Of a DNA stretch of 64,000 nucleotides, positions 14,441 through 25,739 are shown in pieces. A program made the position numbers and the translations under genes. The notes under the pieces were generated by a model that did not search any database, was not told the origin of the DNA, and saw only the letters and a program-made list of their open reading frames with translations. Origin of the DNA: Streptococcaceae bacterium ESL0729 (GTDB lineage Bacteria; Bacillota; Bacilli; Lactobacillales; Streptococcaceae); assembly GCA_029391995.1 (NCBI GenBank), contig CP113924.1, forward strand, positions 651,001-715,000, read 5' to 3'. Every line of letters begins with the position of its first letter. The stretch's first letter is position 1.

Positions 14441-15409
14441 TTATTTTTGAGCTATTTTAGCCGTTAGTCTATGCCAATTTTCAGGAAATCCTAGGCAGGC
14501 TAAAATTTTGTTGATGGAGATTGATTTTAAACGATTATCGAGGGTATTGATTCTTTTGTGGATAGTATTATGAAGGATGGCATACTGCGTTTGACTAAGA
14601 AAGCATTGGAGGATAATAAGGGCTGTATAGACACTATTTTGAGACTCGCCAACTGAAATGTCATATCGCTCATGTAATTCTGGGAAGTATTTAACGGAAC
14701 CATGCCAGGAAAAACCAAGAAGCTGATTGTTATGGGCACAAACATTTCTAACCCTTCTTAGGTGTTCTAAAAAGGAAATCAATACATTTGGATAAAATGG
14801 ATCTTTAAGGGGAGTCGGAGCATTGGCATTGATAAAACTTGTAAGGCTAAAGGCAATTTTATTTTGGAGATTTTCTGGTAGGTAAATAATAATTTTTGCG
14901 GTTTGGCCAAAAGTTAAGTAGTCTATCAAAACCCAAATGGGAACCTCTTGTCCATGTTCTTCTGAATAATCTTTAAGGGAATTATTTGCTTTTTCATTGT
15001 TGATATTTGATCTTAAAGTATCCTTTAGATTGTTAATTAAATACTTTAAATCAGAATCTGACTTACTATAAGAGCCTTCATCAAGATAGGCTGAAATATT
15101 TAGTGGGTGCTCTTCAGCAAAATTGTAAGCTAGAATGCTTTTTATGTGATGTTCTGTCTCAGCTAGGGCATTAAACAAGGCACTCTTGATTTCTTTTTCG
15201 AATATATAAAGGTGGGTAATCTCGTCAAAAGTGGCATGTTCAATGTATGTTTTTTCATCATCAAGCATGAAAAATTTGCTATAGCCATTGATAATAGTGT
15301 GATAATTATTGGTCAAAAGGTAATCACGAGCCCTATTATCATCATCTATTATGAGCCCTCGATTTCTAAGTATCGATAATTGATCATCCAAATTTCTAAA
15401 ATTTTGCAA
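14441..15409 (-). CDS. abiF: Abi_2/AbiF-type abortive infection protein with HEPN motif
   Basis: A 322-residue Abi_2 (PF07751-like) protein. The N-terminal pattern L-D-D-Q-L-S-I-L-R-N-R-G-L-I-I-D-D, then L-T-N-N-Y-H-T-I-I-N-G-Y, is the typical Abi_2 start. R221-N-V-C-A-H226 near the C-terminus is an RX4H motif of HEPN ribonucleases. Such proteins act as RNA-cutting toxins that stop growth during phage infection; members have been linked to neighbouring RNA antitoxins and to Cas13 ancestry (recalled from literature, not checked). TTG 15409 is chosen because GGAGG lies seven bases upstream; ATG 15433 is in frame but falls inside the terminator hairpin with no Shine-Dalgarno. Which Abi_2 subfamily it belongs to is not certain. 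Confidence 0.8.
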   Translation of the reverse strand: MQNFRNLDDQLSILRNRGLIIDDDNRARDYLLTNNYHTIINGYSKFFMLDDEKTYIEHATFDEITHLYIFEKEIKSALFNALAETEHHIKSILAYNFAEEHPLNISAYLDEGSYSKSDSDLKYLINNLKDTLRSNINNEKANNSLKDYSEEHGQEVPIWVLIDYLTFGQTAKIIIYLPENLQNKIAFSLTSFINANAPTPLKDPFYPNVLISFLEHLRRVRNVCAHNNQLLGFSWHGSVKYFPELHERYDISVGESQNSVYTALIILQCFLSQTQYAILHNTIHKRINTLDNRLKSISINKILACLGFPENWHRLTAKIAQK

Positions 15410-15410
15410 G

Positions 15411-15441
15411 AAAAAACCTCCATGTAAGTCCATGGAGGTTT
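15411..15441 (-). terminator. Terminator hairpin that buries the abiF Shine-Dalgarno
   Basis: On the minus strand AAACCTCCATG pairs perfectly over 11 bp with CATGGAGGTTT (6-nt loop), followed by a T run. GGAGG in the 3' arm is the only ribosome binding site for abiF, so read-through RNA would carry it in a closed form. Confidence 0.8.
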
Positions 15442-15479
15442 CGCGGTGGTCCTCGTAAGGATTACACCACTATCTCTAT
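15411..15479 (-). ncRNA. Candidate RNA antitoxin/leader upstream of abiF
   Basis: A promoter (15486-15514) would start a transcript near 15479. The RNA folds as GTGGT-GTAA-TCC-TTAC with a bulged GAGG and closing ACCAC, then a CGCG stretch and a terminator hairpin with six Ts at 15411-15416. It is about 69 nt long and ends right at the abiF start. The abiF Shine-Dalgarno GGAGG is the 3' arm of that terminator. The bulged GAGG can alternatively pair with CCTC of the terminator 5' arm, so the structure could switch. The RNA is inferred from sequence only. Confidence 0.6.
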
Positions 15480-15485
15480 GGAGCA

Positions 15486-15514
15486 ATGATAGTAAAAATA
15501 AAATAATTTGTCAA
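15486..15514 (-). promoter_or_regulatory. Promoter of the abiF-associated RNA
   Basis: Minus strand: TTGACA (15514-15509), 17-bp spacer, TATCAT (15491-15486). A near-consensus vegetative promoter pointing into the 69-nt RNA and abiF. Confidence 0.75.
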
Positions 15515-15700: not shown

Positions 15701-15982
15701 ATGGATATTTATAATGATATTCTAGCCGAACATGAACGTGATTTACGTGAGTTTGAAATAGTTGAACATATTACCTTTATTAATTCAAGATTACCCGAAG
15801 GTGAAAAACTGACACGTCAGGAACTTAACGGTATTAGGGATTCTCTTGATGATTTTTTTGAAAGAATTAATTATAGACAAAATCCAATTCGTTATATTTT
15901 TAATAATATAGAAAAAATTAGACCTGATATTCGTGAGGTAGAAAAACTTAAGCTTTTAGCTATAAATATTGATTATTTATGA
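15701..15982 (+). CDS. Small hypothetical protein upstream of the RNA polymerase-like gene
   Basis: A 93-residue acidic protein starting MDIYNDILAE; helical character with many Glu/Arg and no membrane segment. It resembles no family I recognise. Its stop TGA (15980-15982) overlaps ATG 15979 of the next frame (ATGA), a sign of translational coupling to the RNA-polymerase-like gene. Base composition is AT-rich with GAT/GGT/CGT-heavy codons, unlike neighbouring housekeeping genes, suggesting transfer. The upstream 15541-15700 stretch is strongly AT-rich; TTGAAA near 15604 may be a -35 box. Confidence 0.6.
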   Translation: MDIYNDILAEHERDLREFEIVEHITFINSRLPEGEKLTRQELNGIRDSLDDFFERINYRQNPIRYIFNNIEKIRPDIREVEKLKLLAINIDYL

Positions 15983-16092
15983 GTGACAATAAAGAGTTAA
16001 AAGCATAGGGTATTTCTAATCTACAGCGTCTTCATGATTCAGCTACAGCTGTTGCGGTTGCTGATCCTCGTCTTGATATTAATGAATGTGCT
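15979..16092 (+). other. 5' part of the polymerase-like reading frame, containing a TAG codon
   Basis: ATG 15979 overlaps the upstream stop. It encodes MSDNKELKA, then TAG (16006-16008), then GISNLQRLHDSATAVAV and more protein-like sequence running in the same frame into ATG 16093. The continuity shows that the real gene began at or before 15979 and that one in-frame TAG now interrupts it. Confidence 0.6.
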
Positions 16093-17592
16093 ATGGATAA
16101 AGAAATGATGACAGCTTTAAATGTCAAAGAGGGTGATGTTGTTATGGCTTTCCGTGACCCAGTACTTCGGGATGGGGCTGTACGTGCTTATACTGTTAAA
16201 TTTGATGATTCAGTACACGGTATAGCTGTTAACCCACTTGCTGATAAAAGTCATGATATGGACTTTGATGGTGACACAATGGGTATTAAAAAGTTAAACA
16301 GTAAGGCTGCTATTGAAGAACTTAAAGCTAAGTTCTCACATGTTAATAATATGGTTGATAAGGGTGCTGGTAAAGATGAAAATGGTCTATATCCACTTTA
16401 TTTCCAAAGTGGTATGGATATATCAAGCGCTATAGCCTTCCAAAAAGAGAATAATGATGGTGTAAGTGAGATTGAAGAACTTCTTGAAACTATTAAAATT
16501 CAGGCTAATTCATCATCTGAAAAAATACGTTCAGCAGGACTTCGTAAATTTAATGAATTTAGTAAAAAAGTATTTCGTGAGGTTGGATTTGGTACTGAAC
16601 ATATCGACCTTACAAGTAATCAAACGGTAATGAATTCATATACAAGTATTGTTCGTAATAAAGCTAAGGGAAACCCCGCAAAACTTAAAGAAGTTGCTGA
16701 CTATAATGGTTATAAACTAGATGTAGAAGGTGGTGATGATAAAGAAGTAATTCAAAGTATTGCTGATATGTTAAAAGAAGGTCGAGAAATTGTAATCAAG
16801 GAGGTATGTGAACACTCACTTATGGGTGAAAAAGAAGCTCGGGATATTCAGTTTGCGTCAGGTATTAAGAGTGATGATACAGGACTTGCTGGTTCTACGT
16901 CACAACGTGCTGTAGCCACATTTAGGAATCGTGGATTAACTGAAGTTCTTGAGATAACATATCCCATTACCCAAGGTACACTTCAAATTAAACATGATGC
17001 TGCAAAAGCCAATACAGTTAACGTTGCTTTGTCTATTAAACTTAAAAATTTATATGACGGTAAATCAGCTGATGGTGTGCAAAGTGATTTGTTAGTTGAA
17101 GATTGGAAGGGTGAGATGGCTAAGTTGTTTACAGATGAATTAGATGTTGATTATAATGAGGAATATTTAGACACATTAGCAAATATGCTTAGTGATGGTT
17201 ATGGTCGTGTGATGTCACTTGCTAAAGCTACAGAACTATATGGTTCGCCATTTGATAGAATTGCCTATGGACAAAATGGTTACGAAATGCTTAATGAGTT
17301 TGCCTTGCAAAATCGTAATATTCTTGAGGGGGTACATATCGGAGAAATTGCACCAACTAAGATTCGTGAAGCTTATGATAATAGTAAATTTGCAATAGCA
17401 GAACGTATAGTAAATGAACCAACACCTGTAGTTAAAGATCCATATGATGATATTGACTATGATTATTTTGATCGTAATACTAAAGGTGGTAGTGATGAGC
17501 CTAAACCACGTGAGGAACCTAAGTTTAAAGACGCTGATTTAAAACCTAACATGAAAAAAGTAGATGATCATGATATTGAGATTGATTTCTAA
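16093..17592 (+). CDS. RNA polymerase beta'-like protein (DFDGD motif), N-terminus cut by TAG
   Basis: Coding sequence of 499 residues from the first ATG after the TAG; the frame itself continues from 15979. D57-F-D59-G-D61 in H-D-M-D-F-D-G-D-T-M-G matches the catalytic NADFDGD metal-binding motif of RNA polymerase beta' subunits and of DPBB-type polymerases such as phage SP-beta YonO. T293-Q-G-T-L-Q-I-K-H301 resembles the trigger-loop TQLTMRTFH motif. No beta-type half is seen, so it is either half of a polymerase or 5'-truncated. The C-terminal 60 residues are acidic and disordered. Codon use differs from flanking chromosomal genes. Whether it still polymerises RNA is unknown. Confidence 0.6.
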   Translation: MDKEMMTALNVKEGDVVMAFRDPVLRDGAVRAYTVKFDDSVHGIAVNPLADKSHDMDFDGDTMGIKKLNSKAAIEELKAKFSHVNNMVDKGAGKDENGLYPLYFQSGMDISSAIAFQKENNDGVSEIEELLETIKIQANSSSEKIRSAGLRKFNEFSKKVFREVGFGTEHIDLTSNQTVMNSYTSIVRNKAKGNPAKLKEVADYNGYKLDVEGGDDKEVIQSIADMLKEGREIVIKEVCEHSLMGEKEARDIQFASGIKSDDTGLAGSTSQRAVATFRNRGLTEVLEITYPITQGTLQIKHDAAKANTVNVALSIKLKNLYDGKSADGVQSDLLVEDWKGEMAKLFTDELDVDYNEEYLDTLANMLSDGYGRVMSLAKATELYGSPFDRIAYGQNGYEMLNEFALQNRNILEGVHIGEIAPTKIREAYDNSKFAIAERIVNEPTPVVKDPYDDIDYDYFDRNTKGGSDEPKPREEPKFKDADLKPNMKKVDDHDIEIDF

Positions 17593-17600
17593 TAATGATA

Positions 17601-17630
17601 AAAGAGACCTTTAGGTCTCTTTATTTTGTT
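17601..17630 (+). terminator. Terminator after the polymerase-like gene
   Basis: AAAGAGACC, TTTA loop, GGTCTCTTT, then ATTTT. The following 17631-17788 gap is AT-rich and probably holds the promoter of the next gene. Confidence 0.8.
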
Positions 17631-17788
17631 ACATATATTAGGCACTCATATTGTCATATATGTTATAATAATAGTAATATAAGATAAACGGAGTTTATAC
17701 GTGATAATGTAAATGATTTATTCAATATTTTTATAGGCACGTAGTGAGACGTTTATGATTAATGAAATTTAATTAAAAGGGGTTTAAT

Positions 17789-18499
17789 ATGGCAACCAAA
17801 CGAAAAAAATACTTAAATGATGATGTACCAGCTAGTTATCAAATGTTTTTACGTGAAAATGAGTATGAACCTGATTATTACTCGCTTGAAGAATATGAAG
17901 ACGCTTTAGATTATTTATTTAATAATAGTTATTCGCAATACGTACTTAATCAAGGTGTTACCTTTGACCGTAAGAGTCGATTGATACGAGGTATACACTA
18001 TACGCTTGAATCACTTAATGATTTTTATAGACAGTCCGATGCTGAATATATTAAACATTCATTACCATCTCAATTAGATTTGAAAATGCGTGATTTAAAC
18101 GGTATTAAAAGCCTTGATGATTCTAAATCAGGTGGTGTTGAAGCTGCTGTGATTAATGTTGTAAATAATCCACGAATAATGGGTAATTTTACTACAGCCT
18201 TAGGTATGCAACTTGATTTAACTAGTGAAGAATATGATTTTTATATAAAAAGTAAAGGTAAAGCCATTACTCAAGAAGCATTTGATTTTTATGAATATAC
18301 TAATAATACGCAGACTAAACGAAAGACTAAATCTAATGATTTTGAAGATCTAGGACTTGATTATAGCGACCCTAATTTTGCATCTAACAATGGACTTTTT
18401 GTTGATAAAAATAAAAGCATATTTGATTACGAAAGCTTTCTTAAAGGAGACTTTGGGGATGGCTTTGAGAATATTTTTGGGTCATTTTTTACTGATTAA
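17789..18499 (+). CDS. Hypothetical acidic protein of the polymerase-like cluster
   Basis: A 236-residue soluble protein starting MATKRKKYLN behind AAAAGGGG. It is rich in Asp, Tyr and Asn and ends in a Phe/Gly/Asp-rich tail (D-F-G-D-G-F-E-N-I-F-G-S-F-F-T-D). No motif is recognised. AT-rich composition and codon use match the polymerase-like gene upstream, so both were probably acquired together; a role as its partner is only inference. It ends about 145 bp before guaA. Confidence 0.6.
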   Translation: MATKRKKYLNDDVPASYQMFLRENEYEPDYYSLEEYEDALDYLFNNSYSQYVLNQGVTFDRKSRLIRGIHYTLESLNDFYRQSDAEYIKHSLPSQLDLKMRDLNGIKSLDDSKSGGVEAAVINVVNNPRIMGNFTTALGMQLDLTSEEYDFYIKSKGKAITQEAFDFYEYTNNTQTKRKTKSNDFEDLGLDYSDPNFASNNGLFVDKNKSIFDYESFLKGDFGDGFENIFGSFFTD

Positions 18500-18643: not shown

Positions 18644-20200
18644 TTGACTACAAACTTGAGCATTGCTGATGCTATGCAAAAGATTATCGTATTAGATTAC
18701 GGTAGCCAATATAACCAATTAATTACCCGCCGTATTCGTGAATTTGGTGTGTTTTCTGAGCTTTTAAGCCACAAGGTTACGGCTCGTGAAATTCGTGAAA
18801 TTGACCCAATTGGTATCATCCTTTCAGGTGGGCCAAACTCTGTTTATGATGAGGGAGCTTTTGGGATTGACCAAGAGATTTTTGAGCTTGGGATTCCAAT
18901 TCTTGGTATCTGTTACGGAATGCAGCTAATTACTGACCGCCTTGGTGGTAAGGTTGAGTCAGCCAACAACAGCGAGTACGGAAAAGCTATCCTTAAGCAT
19001 GCTGATGAGGCTGTTCTCTTTTCAAGTACTCCAAGTGAGCAACAAGTTTGGATGAGTCACGGGGACTTGGTTACTAAGCTTCCAGAAGACTTTGAGACTG
19101 TAGCGACAAGTTCAGACTGTCCGATTGCTGCCATCCAAAATACTGTAACCAACATGTACGGTGTGCAGTTCCACCCAGAGGTTACCAACTCAATCTACGG
19201 AAATGACCTTCTTAAACACTTCGCCTTTGACGTATGTAAGGCGCGTGGTGACTGGTCAATGGATAACTTCATCGAGATGGAAGTTCAAAAAATCCGCGAA
19301 AAAGTTGGCGACAAGAAGGTTCTTCTTGGTCTTTCAGGTGGAGTTGACTCATCAGTTGTAGGTGTTCTTTTACAGCGTGCTATCGGTGATCAATTGACTT
19401 CAATCTTCGTTGACCACGGACTTCTTCGTAAGGGTGAAGCTGAGCAAGTTATGGATACTCTTGGTGGAAAATTCGGACTTAATATCATCAAGGTTGATGC
19501 AAAAGACCGTTTCATGGACAAGCTTGCTGGTGTTGATGACCCTGAGAAAAAACGTAAAATCATTGGTAATGAGTTTGTTTATGTTTTTGATGACGAAGCA
19601 ACAAAACTTAAGGGTGTTGACTTCCTAGCTCAAGGAACTCTTTATACTGACGTAATTGAATCAGGTACTGATACAGCTCAAACAATCAAGAGCCACCACA
19701 ATGTTGGCGGACTTCCTGAAGACATGCAGTTTGAGTTAATCGAGCCTTTAAATACTCTATTTAAAGATGAGGTGCGTGCTCTAGGTATCCAACTTGGTAT
19801 GCCAGAGGAAATCGTTTGGCGTCAGCCTTTCCCAGGACCAGGTCTTGCTATCCGTGTTATGGGTGCCATCACTGAAGACAAGCTTGAGATCGTGCGTGAG
19901 TCAGACGCTATCCTTCGTGAGGAGATTGTAAAAGCAGGTCTTGACCGTGATATCTGGCAGTATTTCACAGTAAATACTGGTGTTAAATCAGTTGGTGTTA
20001 TGGGTGACGGCCGTACCTATGACTACACAGTAGCCATTCGTGCCATTACCTCAATTGATGGAATGACAGCAGACTTTGCCCAAATTCCTTGGGACATCCT
20101 CCAAAAAATCTCAGTTCGTATCGTAAATGAAGTTGACCACGTCAACCGCATAGTCTACGACATTACGAGCAAACCACCAGCAACTGTTGAGTGGGAATAG
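18644..20200 (+). CDS. guaA: GMP synthase (glutamine-hydrolysing)
   Basis: Converts XMP to GMP with glutamine and ATP, the last step of GMP synthesis. In the 518-residue product the class I amidotransferase domain has the nucleophile in G-I-C-Y-G-M and the His/Glu pair in F-H-P-E-V; the PP-loop ATP pyrophosphatase motif is L-S-G-G-V-D-S-S; the C-terminal dimerisation domain ends [12 protein letters not shown] 18644 is used (AGGAGG seven bases upstream). The last codons E-W-E-stop form the left attachment core of the downstream element, yet the gene stays intact. Confidence 0.95.
20188..20199 (+). repeat. Left attachment core (attL/R copy 1) in the guaA 3' end
   Basis: TGAGTGGGAATA, repeated exactly at 25956-25967. 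It covers the E-W-E codons and most of the guaA stop, so insertion restores the gene end. Confidence 0.7.
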
Positions 20201-20213
20201 AGTTTATAAAAGC

Positions 20214-20250
20214 AAAAAGCCAATAACCATAAGGTTACTGGCTTTTTTAG
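20214..20250 (+). terminator. Terminator after guaA
   Basis: AAAAAGCCAATAACC pairs with GGTTACTGGCTTTTTT, one mismatch, loop ATAA. It lies inside the element's left end. Confidence 0.85.
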
Positions 20251-20256
20251 ATACAC

Positions 20257-20280
20257 TCTGACAACAGTATGACAACTAAA
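20257..20280 (+). repeat. Integrase arm-type repeats, left end
   Basis: TCTGACAACAGTATGACAAC followed by TAAA: two direct TGACAAC units 13 bp apart. The same arrangement occurs at 25844-25867 near the other end, differing in few bases. Confidence 0.6.
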
Positions 20281-20300
20281 TGTAAGAATAATACCTGCTC

Positions 20301-20319
20301 GTCAGCTCTTCGAGCTGAC
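20301..20319. repeat. Perfect 8-bp hairpin near the element's left end
   Basis: GTCAGCTC, TTC, GAGCTGAC. It lies between the arm repeats and the integrase terminator; perhaps a protein binding site. Confidence 0.45.
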
Positions 20320-20339
20320 CACTGTCACGTGGGGTGAGC

Positions 20340-20384
20340 AAAGAAAAGAATGGTTAAATTGTAAATTTAACCATTCTTTTCTTT
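20340..20384 (-). terminator. Very long terminator stem at the integrase 3' end
   Basis: A perfect 21-bp inverted repeat (20340-20360 with 20364-20384, loop GTA) of the form AAAGAAAAGAATGG...; the integrase stop codon (20367-20369) is inside the stem. On the minus strand the arm ends in CTTT rather than a pure T run, so termination is likely but not certain. Confidence 0.6.
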
Positions 20385-21548
20385 ATTATTCTTAGTGTGT
20401 TGATTGCCATTAAATTTTGGCTTGTATACGCGATCACCACTTACAGAAATCTGACCAAAAAATTTATTTGCTACCTCTTTCATAGCATTCGGACGAAGAT
20501 GAGAGTAGGTGCCTAATGTAGTCTTAATATCGGCATGCCCTAACCTATTTTGCATTTCTAGACTATTCATACCTAATTCAAGCATTAAACTAGCATGAGA
20601 ATGTCTTAAATCATGTACCCTAATTTTTTTAACACCTGCAAATTCTGCATGAATAGATATAATTCTTGAGAGAGTAGATTTTACTAGGGGTAAGCCTGTT
20701 AAAGAAAATATGAAATCTATATTACCTACCTCCTTTTGTCTTTCTTTCCACTCCATCATATAATTTATAGTATCCTTATCTAAATACAATAATCTAGTGC
20801 TTGATAAAGTTTTAGTATCATTGATTGTGTACTCATCTTTATTTTTGTAATACATAGATTTATGAACATAAATTGTTTCATTTTTAAAATCTAAATCTGA
20901 CCAAGTCAATGCTTGCAACTCACTAGTCCTAATACCTGTCATAAAGAAGAACCAGAAAATGATAAATTTCTGATACTCTAGCAAATCACTTTTATCAAAA
21001 GTATTAATAAATCGTTGAAATTCCTCTCTTGTCCAAAAATCTACTTTTGGTTTTTCTTTTTTTACATTACCAACTATTTTGGCAGCATTTTTATTTAAGT
21101 ACCCTAATTTAATAGCTAAATCAAATACTTGTTGTAAAATTTGATGAACAGATCTAATATAATTATTTGAAAGTCCCTCTAAATACAAGTCATTCTGAAA
21201 TTTTTTAACCAATGCAGGAGTTATTTCATCAAGCCTTTTTTTATCAAAGAATTTAAGACGTTTTAATTTAGATTTTGTCATATCATATGTCCTAGCTTGA
21301 ACGCTTTGACGATAATCTGGAATAAAATATTCATTTAAAAAATATTTAAAATTAATATTACCTTGCCTACTAATATCCACGTGTTGTAATTTGTATTCAT
21401 CATGCCACTTTTTAGCTTCCTTTTGAGTAGTAAAACCTCGCTTAGTCTTAGATATTCGCTTTCCTGTTAAATCATCAGTGCCTAAAGATACAATTGTATA
21501 ATATGTTCCACGTTCCTTATCTTGATAAACATTTGAAATTTTAGGCAT
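20367..21548 (-). CDS. int: Tyrosine recombinase integrase of the guaA element
   Basis: A 393-residue site-specific recombinase. It has an N-terminal AP2-like arm-binding region (about 8-55, G-T-Y-Y-T-I-V-S-L-G), a SAM-like core-binding domain (about 65-165) and a catalytic domain with R207 in T-G-I-R-T-S-E-L, H312-D-L-R315, H338 in L-G-H-A-D and nucleophile Y348 in G-T-Y-S-H-L. All catalytic residues are present, so it should be active. It begins at ATG 21548 and overlaps the DUF3173 gene by 8 bp. It presumably recombines the 12-bp core found at both ends. Confidence 0.92.
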   Translation of the reverse strand: MPKISNVYQDKERGTYYTIVSLGTDDLTGKRISKTKRGFTTQKEAKKWHDEYKLQHVDISRQGNINFKYFLNEYFIPDYRQSVQARTYDMTKSKLKRLKFFDKKRLDEITPALVKKFQNDLYLEGLSNNYIRSVHQILQQVFDLAIKLGYLNKNAAKIVGNVKKEKPKVDFWTREEFQRFINTFDKSDLLEYQKFIIFWFFFMTGIRTSELQALTWSDLDFKNETIYVHKSMYYKNKDEYTINDTKTLSSTRLLYLDKDTINYMMEWKERQKEVGNIDFIFSLTGLPLVKSTLSRIISIHAEFAGVKKIRVHDLRHSHASLMLELGMNSLEMQNRLGHADIKTTLGTYSHLRPNAMKEVANKFFGQISVSGDRVYKPKFNGNQHTKNNKEKNG

Positions 21549-21744
21549 GTTCTTTTAGCTCTTCAACATTAATTTTTGTACCAAGTAATTCTTCGGCTAT
21601 TTCTAGTGGAATATATCCAACTCCATTTGAGCGGTAAAGTAATACTCCTCTTTGAACCATTAAATGTTTACCTTGTCTAATTAAATCCTCAGACTGCCAT
21701 TTTGTTAATCCTAGTTTCATTAATAAATCCTTTTTTATTAACAT
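21541..21744 (-). CDS. DUF3173 family protein, putative excisionase/integration helper
   Basis: A 67-residue protein starting MLIKKDLLMKLGL at ATG 21744, with GAGG upstream. The pattern L-T-K-W-Q-S-E-D-L-I-R-Q-G-K, then V-Q-R-G-V-L-L-Y-R and the G-Y-I-P-L-E-I-A-E-E-L-L-G end match DUF3173, a small winged-helix-like family almost always encoded next to tyrosine integrases of ICEs and IMEs. It probably directs excision. It lies between its upstream partner (stop two bases before) and int (8-bp overlap), so they form one transcript. The frame is open further upstream, but that part overlaps the preceding gene. Confidence 0.78.
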   Translation of the reverse strand: MLIKKDLLMKLGLTKWQSEDLIRQGKHLMVQRGVLLYRSNGVGYIPLEIAEELLGTKINVEELKEHA

Positions 21745-21745
21745 A

Positions 21746-22003
21746 TCATACCTCGTCGTCAGTTTCTTTAAAAAATGTAATAGGTAAAGTATCATCTTTA
21801 CCGTCCCAAGCATAAGCATGTGATGCCCAGCGATCAGTATCTTCTTGCATAGTTAGTTTCATAATTAATTCAAATACCTCTTTTTGATTTTCTTCTGAAA
21901 GCATTGCTAGAAATGATATAGCTTCAGCTTGTTCCCTTGTTTCAAAAGTTACTGGTACGTCAAATCCTCTTGTTTCGCTTGTTTCAAATTTAAATCCACG
22001 CAT
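21746..22003 (-). CDS. Small hypothetical element protein
   Basis: An 85-residue soluble protein starting MRGFKFETSE behind GGAG, one base after the rep stop codon. It is acidic, with a central helical part (E-Q-A-E-A-I-S-F-L-A-M-L) and an aromatic segment (D-R-W-A-S-H-A-Y-A-W-D-G). No family is recognised. Tight spacing to rep and the DUF3173 gene shows it belongs to the rep-int operon. Confidence 0.65.
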   Translation of the reverse strand: MRGFKFETSETRGFDVPVTFETREQAEAISFLAMLSEENQKEVFELIMKLTMQEDTDRWASHAYAWDGKDDTLPITFFKETDDEV

Positions 22004-22004
22004 T

Positions 22005-23357
22005 TTAGTTCTCCATTTTCGTAATTTTATTTTTTAAGAAGTCAAAATCTTCTTTTGTTTTAGGGTATATTCTTGGGAATATACGTTCTTTAAGTGTTTT
22101 GTCAATAAATTTATTTCTATCATTATCTGAATACAATTCCTTAAAATCATATTTTAAAGTTATAAAATCGTCATCTGAAATCTGTTTTTCCCTCGGAGTT
22201 TCTAACTTGCAAGTTTTAGATAGGGTAAAAGTTTTTCCAAAAAGTTCCAAGCCTTTTTTCTCTTCTTCAATTTTAGTACCATAATTTACTCGACGTATAA
22301 ATTGGTTTATATCTTCACCAATTAAATTCGCAAAGAAATTTTCTGCCTTTTGATAGTTTGACATTATTATTATTCTAGGAACAACTAATTTATTTTTATA
22401 TCTAGCAGACATTTTTGCAGTGTTTAATGGATCAAATACTTTTAACCAGTCTGAAGGTGTTATTGAGTCAAAACGTAAATCGTCTAAAATCATAATATCC
22501 TCCCCATAATAATCATCAAAAGGATTAGTAGAACCTGCAGAAAATATATTACTATCAAACCCATTAGTAATCCCATATTCTTTAATTTTTTGTGCTATTT
22601 ATCTAGCAAAATATGTTTTTCCAACTCCTGGACTACCTTCAATGTAAAGAACGGTTAAATCATATTTTTTATTTTTAAGTTCCTCTAATCTTAAAACAGC
22701 AGATACCTCACCATAAAAATTTAAAGCATCTCTAATTTGATTTTGATTATTTCTAAACATAAATCTTAAATTAGGATCTTTTATCAAATCTAAGTATTTT
22801 AATTTACCACTATCAATTTCTTCAAGTATGTAATCAAGGGATAGATTAGAATTTTTACGCTTAACAACAGCCTTTCGATTAATCCATTCTTGAGATTTTA
22901 AGTTATAATATTTGATATAATCAAAAGTGTCAAAAGTTTTAACCTCTTTAGGATCATACATATGTTTATCAGGATTTTTAGCATGAATAAGGTAGGCAAG
23001 TAAGTTGTCCTTATTATGAGGACCTCTACTAGGTTTCTTGATAAATTGAGGTTCAATTCCAAGTACATTCGATAGCTTAGATATACTGGTCTTACCTTTA
23101 AACTCAATGAAAACATGGACATGAGGATATACCGGTAAATCATTAATTCCACTCACATCTTTATCGTGTATAATCATACCTGTAGCAAAGTCTTCATACG
23201 AACTCGCCAGTCTGTTATAAATTTCTTCGAGTATAGAATCCTTGTTTAATTCAATATCCTCAAATAATTTAGTTTTATTAATATCCCAATCCCAATACTT
23301 AGCTTTTAATTGTTGTTCAAAACTTAATATTTTATATCTATCTGTTTTGGTAGCCAT
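22005..23357 (-). pseudogene. rep: Rolling-circle Rep (HUH endonuclease plus SF3 helicase) split by an in-frame TAA
   Basis: The frame runs 450 codons from ATG 23357 (AAGGAG upstream) with a single TAA at 22599-22601. First part (252 residues): motif I I-I-H-D-K-D, HUH motif P-H79-V-H81-V-F, catalytic Y122-L-I-H, and Walker A G-S-P-G-V-G-K-T at 241-248. After the stop, the same frame encodes Walker B I-M-I-L-D-D-L-R and the SF3 motif C-like I-I-I-M-S-N. This is the Rep_2/CRESS-like plan of a nicking domain fused to a helicase. Without read-through, the nicking part would lose most of the helicase. An internal ATG (22493) could start the C-terminal piece. Confidence 0.75.
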
Positions 23358-23380
23358 TAATAACTCCTTTAAGAAAATAA

Positions 23381-23587
23381 GTGTCTATTTAAGAGAATAA
23401 AGCGTCTATTTAGCTCACTTTTTTTCTAAATAGACACCTAAGTAGACGCCTACCAAGCCTTTATTTCACAAAGATACCCATTTTTAGGTTATACCCAAGG
23501 GTCCAATAACCATAGGGGTTTTGGTGGTCAACAAGCTCTCAAAACCCCGTGCGTTAGAATGGATTTGTGAAGCAAAGTGTCTATTTA
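23381..23587. repeat. Iteron-type replication origin of the element
   Basis: Five copies of GTGTCTATTTA or close variants: 23381-23391 and 23402-23412 (direct, 21 bp apart), 23427-23437 and 23439-23449 (inverted, 12 bp apart) and 23577-23587 (direct). Between them GGGGTTTT (23515-23522) and AAAACCCC (23541-23548) frame an 18-nt loop, a candidate nick-site hairpin. The array lies immediately upstream of rep, where a double-strand origin is expected. Confidence 0.65.
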
Positions 23588-23613
23588 GCACCTGTTTTCA
23601 AAAAACTCTTTGA

Positions 23614-23737
23614 CTTAACTTCCAGTTGGTCGTGAGCAAACGATTAGCATAGCTTTTTGGTAGCATGAGCTTACTGCCTTTTTAGGGCAACGCTCACGCT
23701 ACCAAAACCATGTTTGCTCTACTTGCTGGAAGTTAAG
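23614..23737. repeat. 124-bp nested hairpin: candidate single-strand origin or oriT
   Basis: Four nested stems: CTTAACTTCCAG (23614-23625)/CTGGAAGTTAAG (23726-23737), GAGCAAAC (23634-23641)/GTTTGCTC (23712-23719), TTTTGGTAGC (23655-23664)/GCTACCAAAA (23698-23707), TGAGC/GCTCA (23666-23670/23692-23696), closed by TGCC/GGCA. Such long imperfect folds are typical of single-strand origins of rolling-circle replicons. It overlaps the end of the next gene by three bases. Confidence 0.6.
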
Positions 23738-24179
23738 CTTTAGAGCTTTCAGAAGTAGTAGTAGTGATCTTAGAAACGCCATCAACAACAAGTTTTAGTT
23801 TCTTAAAAGAACCACTCTGTCCCATTGTTACCCACAAAGGCTTGACAACTGGATTAATAAATTTTACTAAACCTATATAGTTGGAATCAACCAAATCAGC
23901 TACAGTATCAAAATCTTTAACAACTTCAATAACAATACCATTTACTTGAGATATATCAGCTCCTACACTTTCTAAAGCTCTTACTACATTTACATCTATA
24001 CCTTTTAAAACATATTTAGCAATTTCATCTGTTTTATTCCTATCTTTATAGATATAGGTTGGTTTCACATCAACAAAATCAATGTAAAGTTCAGTAGGAA
24101 TATCAAATTGTTTTGAATCAAAAACTAATTCTCCTAATTTAATATCTCCTAGAAGTGATACTTTAGTATTTTCAGTCAT
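23733..24179 (-). CDS. Hypothetical protein of the element
   Basis: A 148-residue soluble protein (start MTENTKVSLL, GAGGAA eight bases upstream), rich in Val, Asp and Lys with alternating hydrophobic residues suggesting beta structure, and a Thr/Ser-rich end. No family motif recognised. It lies directly upstream of the origin region in the leftward operon, where small rep-accessory genes are common; a replication or copy-control role is inference only. Its stop codon lies inside the long hairpin. Confidence 0.6.
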   Translation of the reverse strand: MTENTKVSLLGDIKLGELVFDSKQFDIPTELYIDFVDVKPTYIYKDRNKTDEIAKYVLKGIDVNVVRALESVGADISQVNGIVIEVVKDFDTVADLVDSNYIGLVKFINPVVKPLWVTMGQSGSFKKLKLVVDGVSKITTTTSESSKA

Positions 24180-24197
24180 GAAAAGTTCCTCTTTTTT

Positions 24198-24650
24198 TTA
24201 TTTAAATATTCTGCTAAAGCCTTTTTTATTTTCTAAGACTTCTAATCTGTTTTGTAATTCATTAATTTTTTTTGATTGAACACTCACTTGTTTAGTCAGA
24301 CTGGCGAGTTCAGTCTGAAGATTTTTACCATTATGGAAAAGTTTTCTTAAACTATCGTCAAGAAATCTTTCTGATTTTGCTTTTTTTGATTCTTCAATAT
24401 TTCCAAATATTTCACTAATGGCTTGTTCTTTTGTTTTTCCAGAATCAATCATTTCTGCCATGTCTTTGAAACAATCAAGATCATCCTCTGTAAAGTAGTA
24501 GATAGTACGATTTTTTCTTCCTCTACCGTTTATGACCTTTGTACGCTTAAACTCATAGCCCGATATTCTAGTAATATCAGAACGCCATTTACGAATAGTA
24601 TCGTATGAACGACCTAACTCTTTAGAAAGTGCAGCATAATTATAATTCAT
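24198..24650 (-). CDS. DNA-binding protein with N-terminal HTH and C-terminal coiled coil
   Basis: A 150-residue protein. Residues 1-60 (Y-A-A-L-S-K-E-L-G-R-S-Y-D-T-I-R-K-W) look like a MerR/RacA-like winged helix, with R-K-N-R-T-I-Y-Y-F-T-E-D-D-L-D at its edge. From about residue 110 a coiled coil with regular Leu/Val/Ile (L-T-K-Q-V-S-V-Q-S-K-K-I-N-E-L) runs almost to the end. Proteins of this plan serve in plasmid replication control or partition. Its ATG overlaps the end of the preceding 80-residue gene, indicating translational coupling. Confidence 0.68.
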   Translation of the reverse strand: MNYNYAALSKELGRSYDTIRKWRSDITRISGYEFKRTKVINGRGRKNRTIYYFTEDDLDCFKDMAEMIDSGKTKEQAISEIFGNIEESKKAKSERFLDDSLRKLFHNGKNLQTELASLTKQVSVQSKKINELQNRLEVLENKKGFSRIFK

Positions 24651-24882
24651 TAATCAAATCTATAACTTTAAGTTTTTGCCTTGACTGTTTTAATTCTAAT
24701 TCTCCCCCTTTTTCAAGAAGCGTAGAAGCATACTGTTCAGTCATTTCTGCCAAGGAAACATATAAATCTATCGTATTAGCATATTTAATTTCTTCTACCG
24801 ATTTTCCTATCAGTAAAACGTTAGCTATTACATTTATACCACCTAATAAATCATTCAAATCAAAATTTTCATTGCTAATCAT
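24640..24882 (-). CDS. Small hypothetical protein, first gene of the leftward element operon
   Basis: An 80-residue acidic, Leu-rich, probably helical protein (start MISNENFDLN; AGAAGAAG upstream). No domain is recognised. It overlaps the HTH/coiled-coil gene by 11 bp and is the first gene transcribed from the divergent promoter region next to the XRE repressor, a position often held by small regulatory proteins of satellites. Confidence 0.55.
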   Translation of the reverse strand: MISNENFDLNDLLGGINVIANVLLIGKSVEEIKYANTIDLYVSLAEMTEQYASTLLEKGGELELKQSRQKLKVIDLINEL

Positions 24883-25109
24883 TTATCTTCTTCTTTCTTT
24901 TTGTTACAATTGCAGTAGTTAATTTACAGAATCGTCTTTCTTGCAGGTTGGACGATTTATTTATATTATTCCCCCTTCACGTTTTTAATTCACTAAATTA
25001 GTTTTAACTTGTATTAATGAATCTAAATTTAATTTACAGCAAATTAATTATTTTGTCAAGGTATAAGTTGTAAAAATGAATTTAAACTTGGAAAAGGAAA
25101 GGTACAAGT
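24883..25109. promoter_or_regulatory. Divergent control region of the element
   Basis: A 227-bp AT-rich gap between the leftward rep operon and the rightward repressor. AATCGTC (24930-24936) / GACGATT (24951-24957) forms a hairpin, and TTAATTTACAG occurs twice (about 24919 and 25027), candidate operator half-sites for the XRE protein. No clear consensus promoter was fixed. Confidence 0.4.
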
Positions 25110-25739
25110 ATGGAAGAAAAGTATTTTATTCAAAATTTTGGTAGTAATCTAGCCAGACTGCGAAAAGAAAGAGATGTTAAACAAGAAGAGTTAGCTAATG
25201 CAATTGGTGTAAGTAAAAATTCTATATCCAATATTGAAAAAGGAAAGGCATATCCTACTTTTAATAATTTAGACAAGATTGCTAAGTTTTTTAGGGCTAC
25301 CCCTACTCAACTTTTTGGTACCAATCAAGATATTGAATTAGAAATAAGTGCAGAAAACATTGATGAATACAATGAGAAAGCATTAAATATTTTGAAAGCA
25401 AATAAAATTGTCAATGATTATTATAAAGAAATGATTGATTTAGAAAACGGTAAGGGAGATCCAATTTTTGGCGAAACAGTTCATGCAATATTTTTAGCAT
25501 CGTCACTTATGAGAAAAGACCAAGCTACTACTGACGATGGAACACTTATTTATAAAAATTCTGTCACAGGAAAAATGATGCCAGTTAGTGATTGGAGCGA
25601 TGAGTATACAATTCCAGTTAAAGAGCCAAGCAAATTAGAACAATTATTAAGTAAAAAAGATGAATTGTTAGAAATTGCTAATCTAATTGACTACATAAAG
25701 GAAAATGAAGGAGTACTCAATCATGGAAAAGAAAACTAA
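25110..25739 (+). CDS. XRE-family transcriptional repressor of the element
   Basis: A 209-residue regulator with an N-terminal helix-turn-helix (about 10-65: L-A-R-L-R-K-E-R-D-V-K-Q-E-E-L-A-N-A-I-G-V-S, then S-I-S-N-I-E-K-G-K-A-Y-P-T). The C-terminal part has no visible LexA-type Ser/Lys protease pair, so it is not clearly an SOS-cleaved repressor. It is divergent from the rep-int operon and should hold it silent. AAAGG lies upstream of ATG 25110. Confidence 0.8.
   Translation: MEEKYFIQNFGSNLARLRKERDVKQEELANAIGVSKNSISNIEKGKAYPTFNNLDKIAKFFRATPTQLFGTNQDIELEISAENIDEYNEKALNILKANKIVNDYYKEMIDLENGKGDPIFGETVHAIFLASSLMRKDQATTDDGTLIYKNSVTGKMMPVSDWSDEYTIPVKEPSKLEQLLSKKDELLEIANLIDYIKENEGVLNHGKEN

Follow-up and report, generated by a model that had tools for sequence, protein, structure and literature searches.

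The window analysed here, a 64,000-nucleotide stretch of the genome of Streptococcaceae bacterium ESL0729, contains an abiF gene preceded by a promoter, a predicted small RNA and an intrinsic terminator, all on the reverse strand (Table 1). The gene is the sole Abi_2 gene of the genome, and its product matches the Abi_2 domain PF07751 at 3e-34 (119 bits, cut-off 25.6) and the PADLOC AbiD model at 1.5e-50. A phmmer comparison relates it to PbAbiF of the PbAbiF-ncRNA complex 8vz6 (4.8e-8), and its AlphaFold2 model (pLDDT 89.8) matches 8vz6 with Z 23.4, 281 residues aligning at 2.5 A and 19% identity; the matches to Cas13d (Z 7.7-8.8) are middling for helical proteins and weak taken alone. The RX4H motif pointed out in the preliminary description (R221/H226) is well founded, as R221, N222, A225 and H226 are invariant among 17 aligned relatives. 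Domain, motif and predicted fold place the protein among the AbiF/Abi_2 HEPN toxins of the AbiD/F group, and it is presumably an RNase. A search with this protein alone found a single distant relative among viral sequences, and alignment A1 is too diverse to serve for a locus scan. Homologues begin at the position of the TTG codon at 15409, where MKPFK... aligns with MQNFR..., and an in-frame ATG at 15433 falls within the hairpin and has no Shine-Dalgarno sequence.

Three genes adjoin abiF at 15701-18499(+). The gene in the middle, 16093-17592(+), is similar to domain 2 of RNA polymerase beta' and has an HDMDFDGD motif; as an in-frame TAG lies just upstream of it, this gene may be a mobile-element fragment that has been truncated. 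The region 18644-25739 contains guaA, followed by a tyrosine integrase, small phage- or plasmid-type genes and lastly an XRE-like repressor, and has the appearance of an element inserted at the 3' end of guaA.

Table 1. Features of the abiF locus, and related RNAs on phage contigs
Feature	Coordinates	Strand	Remarks
-35 box TTGACA	15509..15514	-	Nearly all relatives have TTGACA or a close variant upstream
-10 box TATCAT	15486..15491	-	17-bp spacer from -35
Leader segment UCCAUAGAG	15474..15482	-	8/9 complementary to terminator 5' arm/loop CUCCAUGGA, one mismatch
Predicted AbiF antitoxin RNA, ~69 nt	15411..15479	-	Promoter and terminator geometry, comparative support
Conserved RNA motif	15441..15471	-	7-bp outer stem, short 5' bulge, 3-4-bp inner stem, UACG loop; R1 model
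Intrinsic terminator hairpin, then T tract to 15411	15413..15442	-	GAAACCTCCATG/GACTTA/CATGGAGGTTTT, about 11-12 bp
Shine-Dalgarno GGAGG in terminator 3' arm	15417..15421	-	7 nt before TTG 15409
AbiF/Abi_2 HEPN protein	14441..15409	-	322 aa, TTG start
HEPN RNase motif RNVCAH (R221, H226)	14732..14749	-	Alignments A1, A2, A7
Phage orphan RNA, L144	158-188		
Phage orphan RNA, L146	2845-2875		
Phage orphan RNA, L155	7775-7805		
Phage orphan RNA, L160	122-152		
Phage orphan RNA, L174	649-679		
Further phage orphan RNAs, L162, L163, L167, L172, L173, L175, L177, L158			

The promoter proposed in the preliminary description, TTGACA-17-TATCAT at 15514-15486(-), is the top promoter-like site of the region, scoring 11/12. 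Also borne out are a hairpin and T tract that end the RNA right at the abi start, and a GGAGG within the 3' arm of that hairpin seven bases before the TTG. The start (15479) and end (15411) of the RNA are predictions from sequence. The folding energy of the region is -32.5 kcal/mol, whereas shuffled sequences give -17.5 (z -4.7, 0/200 shuffles). With an RNA gene upstream of the toxin, a promoter before the RNA and a terminator between the two, the locus has the layout of a type III RNA toxin-antitoxin system. Type III antitoxin RNAs are built of tandem repeats, as in ToxI; the window RNA differs in having one motif copy only.

Inspection of the upstream regions of about 80 homologues showed the order promoter, RNA, terminator, gene at most loci. 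A large class of these shares a 31-nt bulged hairpin, in which AG and an outer stem are followed by a short bulge, a CUC-UACG-GRG-like inner hairpin and GCGGAAA, and then by the terminator. In an alignment that includes the window, two-sided changes in the stem number 56 where 21 are expected (0/500 shuffles), slid control alignments collapse, and the same picture is obtained from 20 relatives without the window. A covariance-model search of this kind had been suggested as a check on the RNA, and the model R1, built from those 20 relatives with the window excluded, picks out exactly 15471-15441(-) at 38.1 bits (E 1.3e-7), with compensatory changes. The next-best match across the 1.45-Mb genome scores 14.8 bits, so that the window RNA is the only real one. 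Applied to 400 genomes of the bacterial class R1 found only the genome to which the window belongs, and in 400 genomes of the phylum three more, counts that are not prevalence estimates because few candidates are scored when the fast filter is used.

Rfam scans of the window gave no match at gathering score and only chance-level ones with E up to 5. The abiF RNA family RF03085 has no match in the window up to E 5, and none at gathering score in relatives belonging to the same RNA class; a C. difficile phage RNA included as a control does match RF03085, at 37.6 bits. The window RNA therefore belongs to a class separate from the Rfam abiF RNA.

Two other arrangements were seen. A second layout of AbiF RNAs occurs upstream of abiF at L007, L008, L043 and L062: the RNA hairpin itself appears to act as the terminator, and a separate ribosome binding site serves the gene. 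In one bacterial genome the motif (L142, 1501-1531, 42.1 bits) has no AbiF match just downstream and the leader match is poor by eye; this copy is possibly a remnant.

That AbiF and an adjacent RNA might form a toxin-antitoxin pair related to Cas13, as the preliminary description noted, is published for relatives: AbiF with an upstream antitoxin RNA is established, and AbiF is a proposed ancestor of Cas13 (PMC12373285, PMC12737573). The AbiF-Cd/RCd22 locus of C. difficile resembles the window in having an Abi_2 HEPN toxin and the order SigA-type promoter, antitoxin RNA, terminator, toxin, and experiments show that RCd22 works both in cis, through termination, and in trans, through binding to AbiF (PMC12373285). 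However, there are two RF03085 motifs in RCd22, and its AGGTGA ribosome binding site is a separate one downstream, whereas the window RNA has one motif of another class and its Shine-Dalgarno sequence lies inside the terminator. PbAbiF-AbiFr (8vz6, Zilberzwige-Tal et al. 2025) shares its fold with the window AbiF model, as noted above; by the accounts in PMC12373285 and PMC12737573, its HEPN R and H are reported to be essential and one RNA is bound per monomer. AbiD1 of L. lactis is similar in that a ~50-nt RNA runs to a terminator before the gene, and its toxin is made by read-through with the ribosome binding site hidden by RNA structure; the 50-nt RNA, the terminator and the hidden site are all experimentally determined (PMC2661086). 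In abiD1 it is a second, AU-rich hairpin after the terminator that hides the site, whereas in the window the terminator itself holds it; abiD1 translation is activated by phage Orf1 or cold (PMC2661086). In these previously reported AbiF and abiD1 systems the ribosome binding site follows the terminator (PMC12373285, PMC2661086). An antitoxin RNA next to AbiF is already known from C. difficile RCd22, PbAbiF and L. lactis AbiD1. Relative to those reports the RNA class and the conserved Shine-Dalgarno inside the terminator are new, as are the leader-terminator complementarity and the lone phage copies described below, although earlier mention of any of these elsewhere is possible.

The locked Shine-Dalgarno is a common arrangement. 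The best Shine-Dalgarno sequence lies within the terminator 3' arm at 25 of 39 non-redundant loci, window included, and their start codons are mostly TTG, GTG or ATT at the end of the T tract. The loci come from Streptococcaceae, Lactobacillaceae, Enterococcus, Aerococcaceae and Selenomonadales, and those named include Streptococcus, Enterococcus, several lactobacilli, Aerococcus, Selenomonas and Acidaminococcus. We consider it likely that the window locus is an AbiF-type RNA toxin-antitoxin or abortive-infection module whose terminator doubles as a lock on the ribosome binding site. This reading is built on the protein family and predicted fold, the homology and covariation of the RNA, the position of the Shine-Dalgarno sequence and the complementarity; we infer from these the RNase activity, the antitoxin action, the efficiency of termination and the switch considered below. 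In such a module the strong local promoter would produce a short RNA, whose bulged hairpin would be the antitoxin; on the model of RCd22 and PbAbiFr, it would bind the AbiF dimer and block its HEPN RNase. Most transcripts would end at the terminator that directly precedes the toxin gene, and since its 3' arm is also the toxin's ribosome binding site, a read-through transcript would keep a closed start. One hairpin could in this way limit the toxin at both transcription and translation.

The alternative that this is an ordinary AbiF-RNA pair, in which the terminator merely insulates and its overlap with the Shine-Dalgarno sequence is incidental leader compaction of no regulatory role, seems to us unlikely, but not greatly so. 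The overlap is missing at 14 of the 39 loci, where for the most part a separate ribosome binding site and an ATG lie about 20 nt further on, so the module does not need it, and abiD1 was translated no more strongly once its terminator had been removed (PMC2661086). However, the overlap recurs in several families, mostly with a non-ATG start, and G.U pairs are kept in the terminator arms in such a way that a GGRGG-like Shine-Dalgarno sequence is preserved.

A further element of the locus lies near the transcription start. According to the preliminary description a bulged GAGG could compete for the CCTC of the terminator, but this candidate was rejected because its bases belong to the conserved inner stem of the RNA motif; the terminator 5' arm has its complement instead in 15482-15474 (UCCAUAGAG), a segment that straddles the transcription start and lies in part inside the RNA. 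The pairing in the window is worth -9.8 kcal/mol (p 0.011 against shuffled leaders). At most loci the terminator 5' arm finds its complement in a segment that covers the -10 box and discriminator, as where GCTAAGGACAGA pairs with TCTGTCCTTAG (L088) or AAATGGAGA with TCTCCATTT (L049). Over 50 loci the mean duplex energy is -10.9 kcal/mol for cognate and -5.9 for non-cognate leader and arm, and 0 of 50,000 permutations were as good, although such permutations leave some shared ancestry in place; with redundancy removed more strictly (32 loci) the result was unchanged, and three neighbouring control segments gave no signal comparable to that of the leader. Among the bases of the terminator loop, which are free of hairpin constraint, 55 of 87 match the leader against a background of 42% (p 7e-5). 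At four later loci the ranks are weaker, with 1, 7, 7 and 11 of 39 non-cognate arms equalling the cognate one.

This complementarity suggests, at the level of sequence comparison, a promoter-of-origin antiterminator. In folds of upstream-started RNAs that stop short of the 3' arm, the 5' arm and leader form 10.3 pairs, compared with 3.8 for shuffled leaders, whereas in the folded full-length RNA the terminator beats leader pairing at nearly all loci; the leader could therefore act only during transcription. Complementarity is also present at L005, L006, L011 and L041 despite their separate ribosome binding sites, and the terminator rather than the Shine-Dalgarno sequence thus seems to be its target. 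We put forward, tentatively and as a possibility short of a probable one, a three-strand switch in which promoter choice would set toxin or antitoxin. An RNA started at the local promoter would lack the leader, the terminator would form, and antitoxin alone would be made. Transcripts started upstream, for example from a prophage repressor operon, contain the leader, the segment just upstream of +1, and could therefore escape the terminator and expose the start: the leader would pair with the 5' arm, blocking termination and freeing the Shine-Dalgarno sequence for toxin synthesis. The nearest upstream genes at the loci compared are mostly co-directional, with no terminator-like site between. 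In the window, however, the nearest gene upstream of abiF is divergent, leaving the read-through step without an obvious source, and as the window pairing is also weaker, the switch is a class-level proposal and uncertain for the window itself. The folding of RNA according to the promoter that started it has a precedent in the protection of IS10 from outside promoters; there outside transcripts hide the start site, whereas the proposed AbiF switch would expose it. Read-through as a means of AbiF release has been raised as a speculation by the authors of the RCd22 study (PMC12373285).

Two other explanations of the complementarity were considered. Its coverage, in an alignment biased toward Watson-Crick pairs, peaks at -11 to -1 and has faded by +5, which coincides with the open-complex bubble, and the terminator 5' arm of the RNA might act on DNA by pairing with the open promoter, either repressing its own synthesis or guiding AbiF to leader-bearing transcripts. 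We judge this improbable: RCd22 supplied in trans left abiF expression unchanged (PMC12373285), although the C. difficile locus has no leader complementarity by sequence inspection, and several phage orphans that are without the full unit have none either, which links the complementarity to toxin expression and not to RNA synthesis. The second explanation, that the leader resembles another -10-like element, located in the 3' arm of the terminator (a site of sigma-dependent pausing or an internal promoter) rather than pairing as RNA, takes its appeal from the TAGAAT-like sequence often found in that arm, but appears very improbable. Of 83 positions where the two arms are not Watson-Crick paired, the leader is complementary to the 5' arm at 76 and has the base of the 3' arm at 5, a count somewhat biased because the alignment favours Watson-Crick pairs, and at L088 the leader pairs over 11-12 bp with the 5' arm while the 3' arm differs.

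Copies of the RNA are also found on phage genomes. Pattern scans of viral contigs, in which one exact RNA pattern gave no matches and looser patterns did, yielded many motif copies, most scoring 35-49 bits, of which a minority have abiF directly downstream. Four identical metagenomic matches at 20.8 bits (L154, L156, L157, L159) look like chance. There are about a dozen distinct orphans; several adjoin tRNA or tRNA-like genes and some are near terminase genes. Their stems are kept despite differing sequences, with 95.8% of cells paired and 15 two-sided changes (0/500 shuffles). No Abi_2 was found in five viral records and in one of the two S. agalactiae phage records searched, although viral records may be fragments.

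A weaker copy (29.3 bits) lies at 2496-2526 in the S. agalactiae phages Javan35, LF2 and phiGBSVK-D (L151-L153), directly after a tRNA-like gene (tRNA-Tyr in the LF2 annotation), with homing-endonuclease and packaging genes following downstream. Javan35 in addition has an Abi_2 gene at another position, downstream of the lysin gene. At L182, L183 and L184 the motif is accompanied by a Shine-Dalgarno-bearing terminator and a leader-like segment with no AbiF detected downstream, the toxin possibly having been lost or replaced.

The lone phage RNAs are candidate antitoxin mimics, perhaps disarming AbiF toxins. Antitoxin mimicry is known as counter-defence against other toxin-antitoxin systems (pseudo-ToxI, the DarTG mimic), and cyanophage S-CREM1 is already reported to carry an RF03085 RNA (PMC9964418).

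These data describe a class of AbiF-associated RNA missed by Rfam and present across several Bacillota families, in which one hairpin would couple termination with hiding of the start site. The complementarity between promoter and terminator offers a concrete, testable release mechanism for AbiF toxins, and the lone phage copies suggest that natural anti-AbiF RNAs exist.
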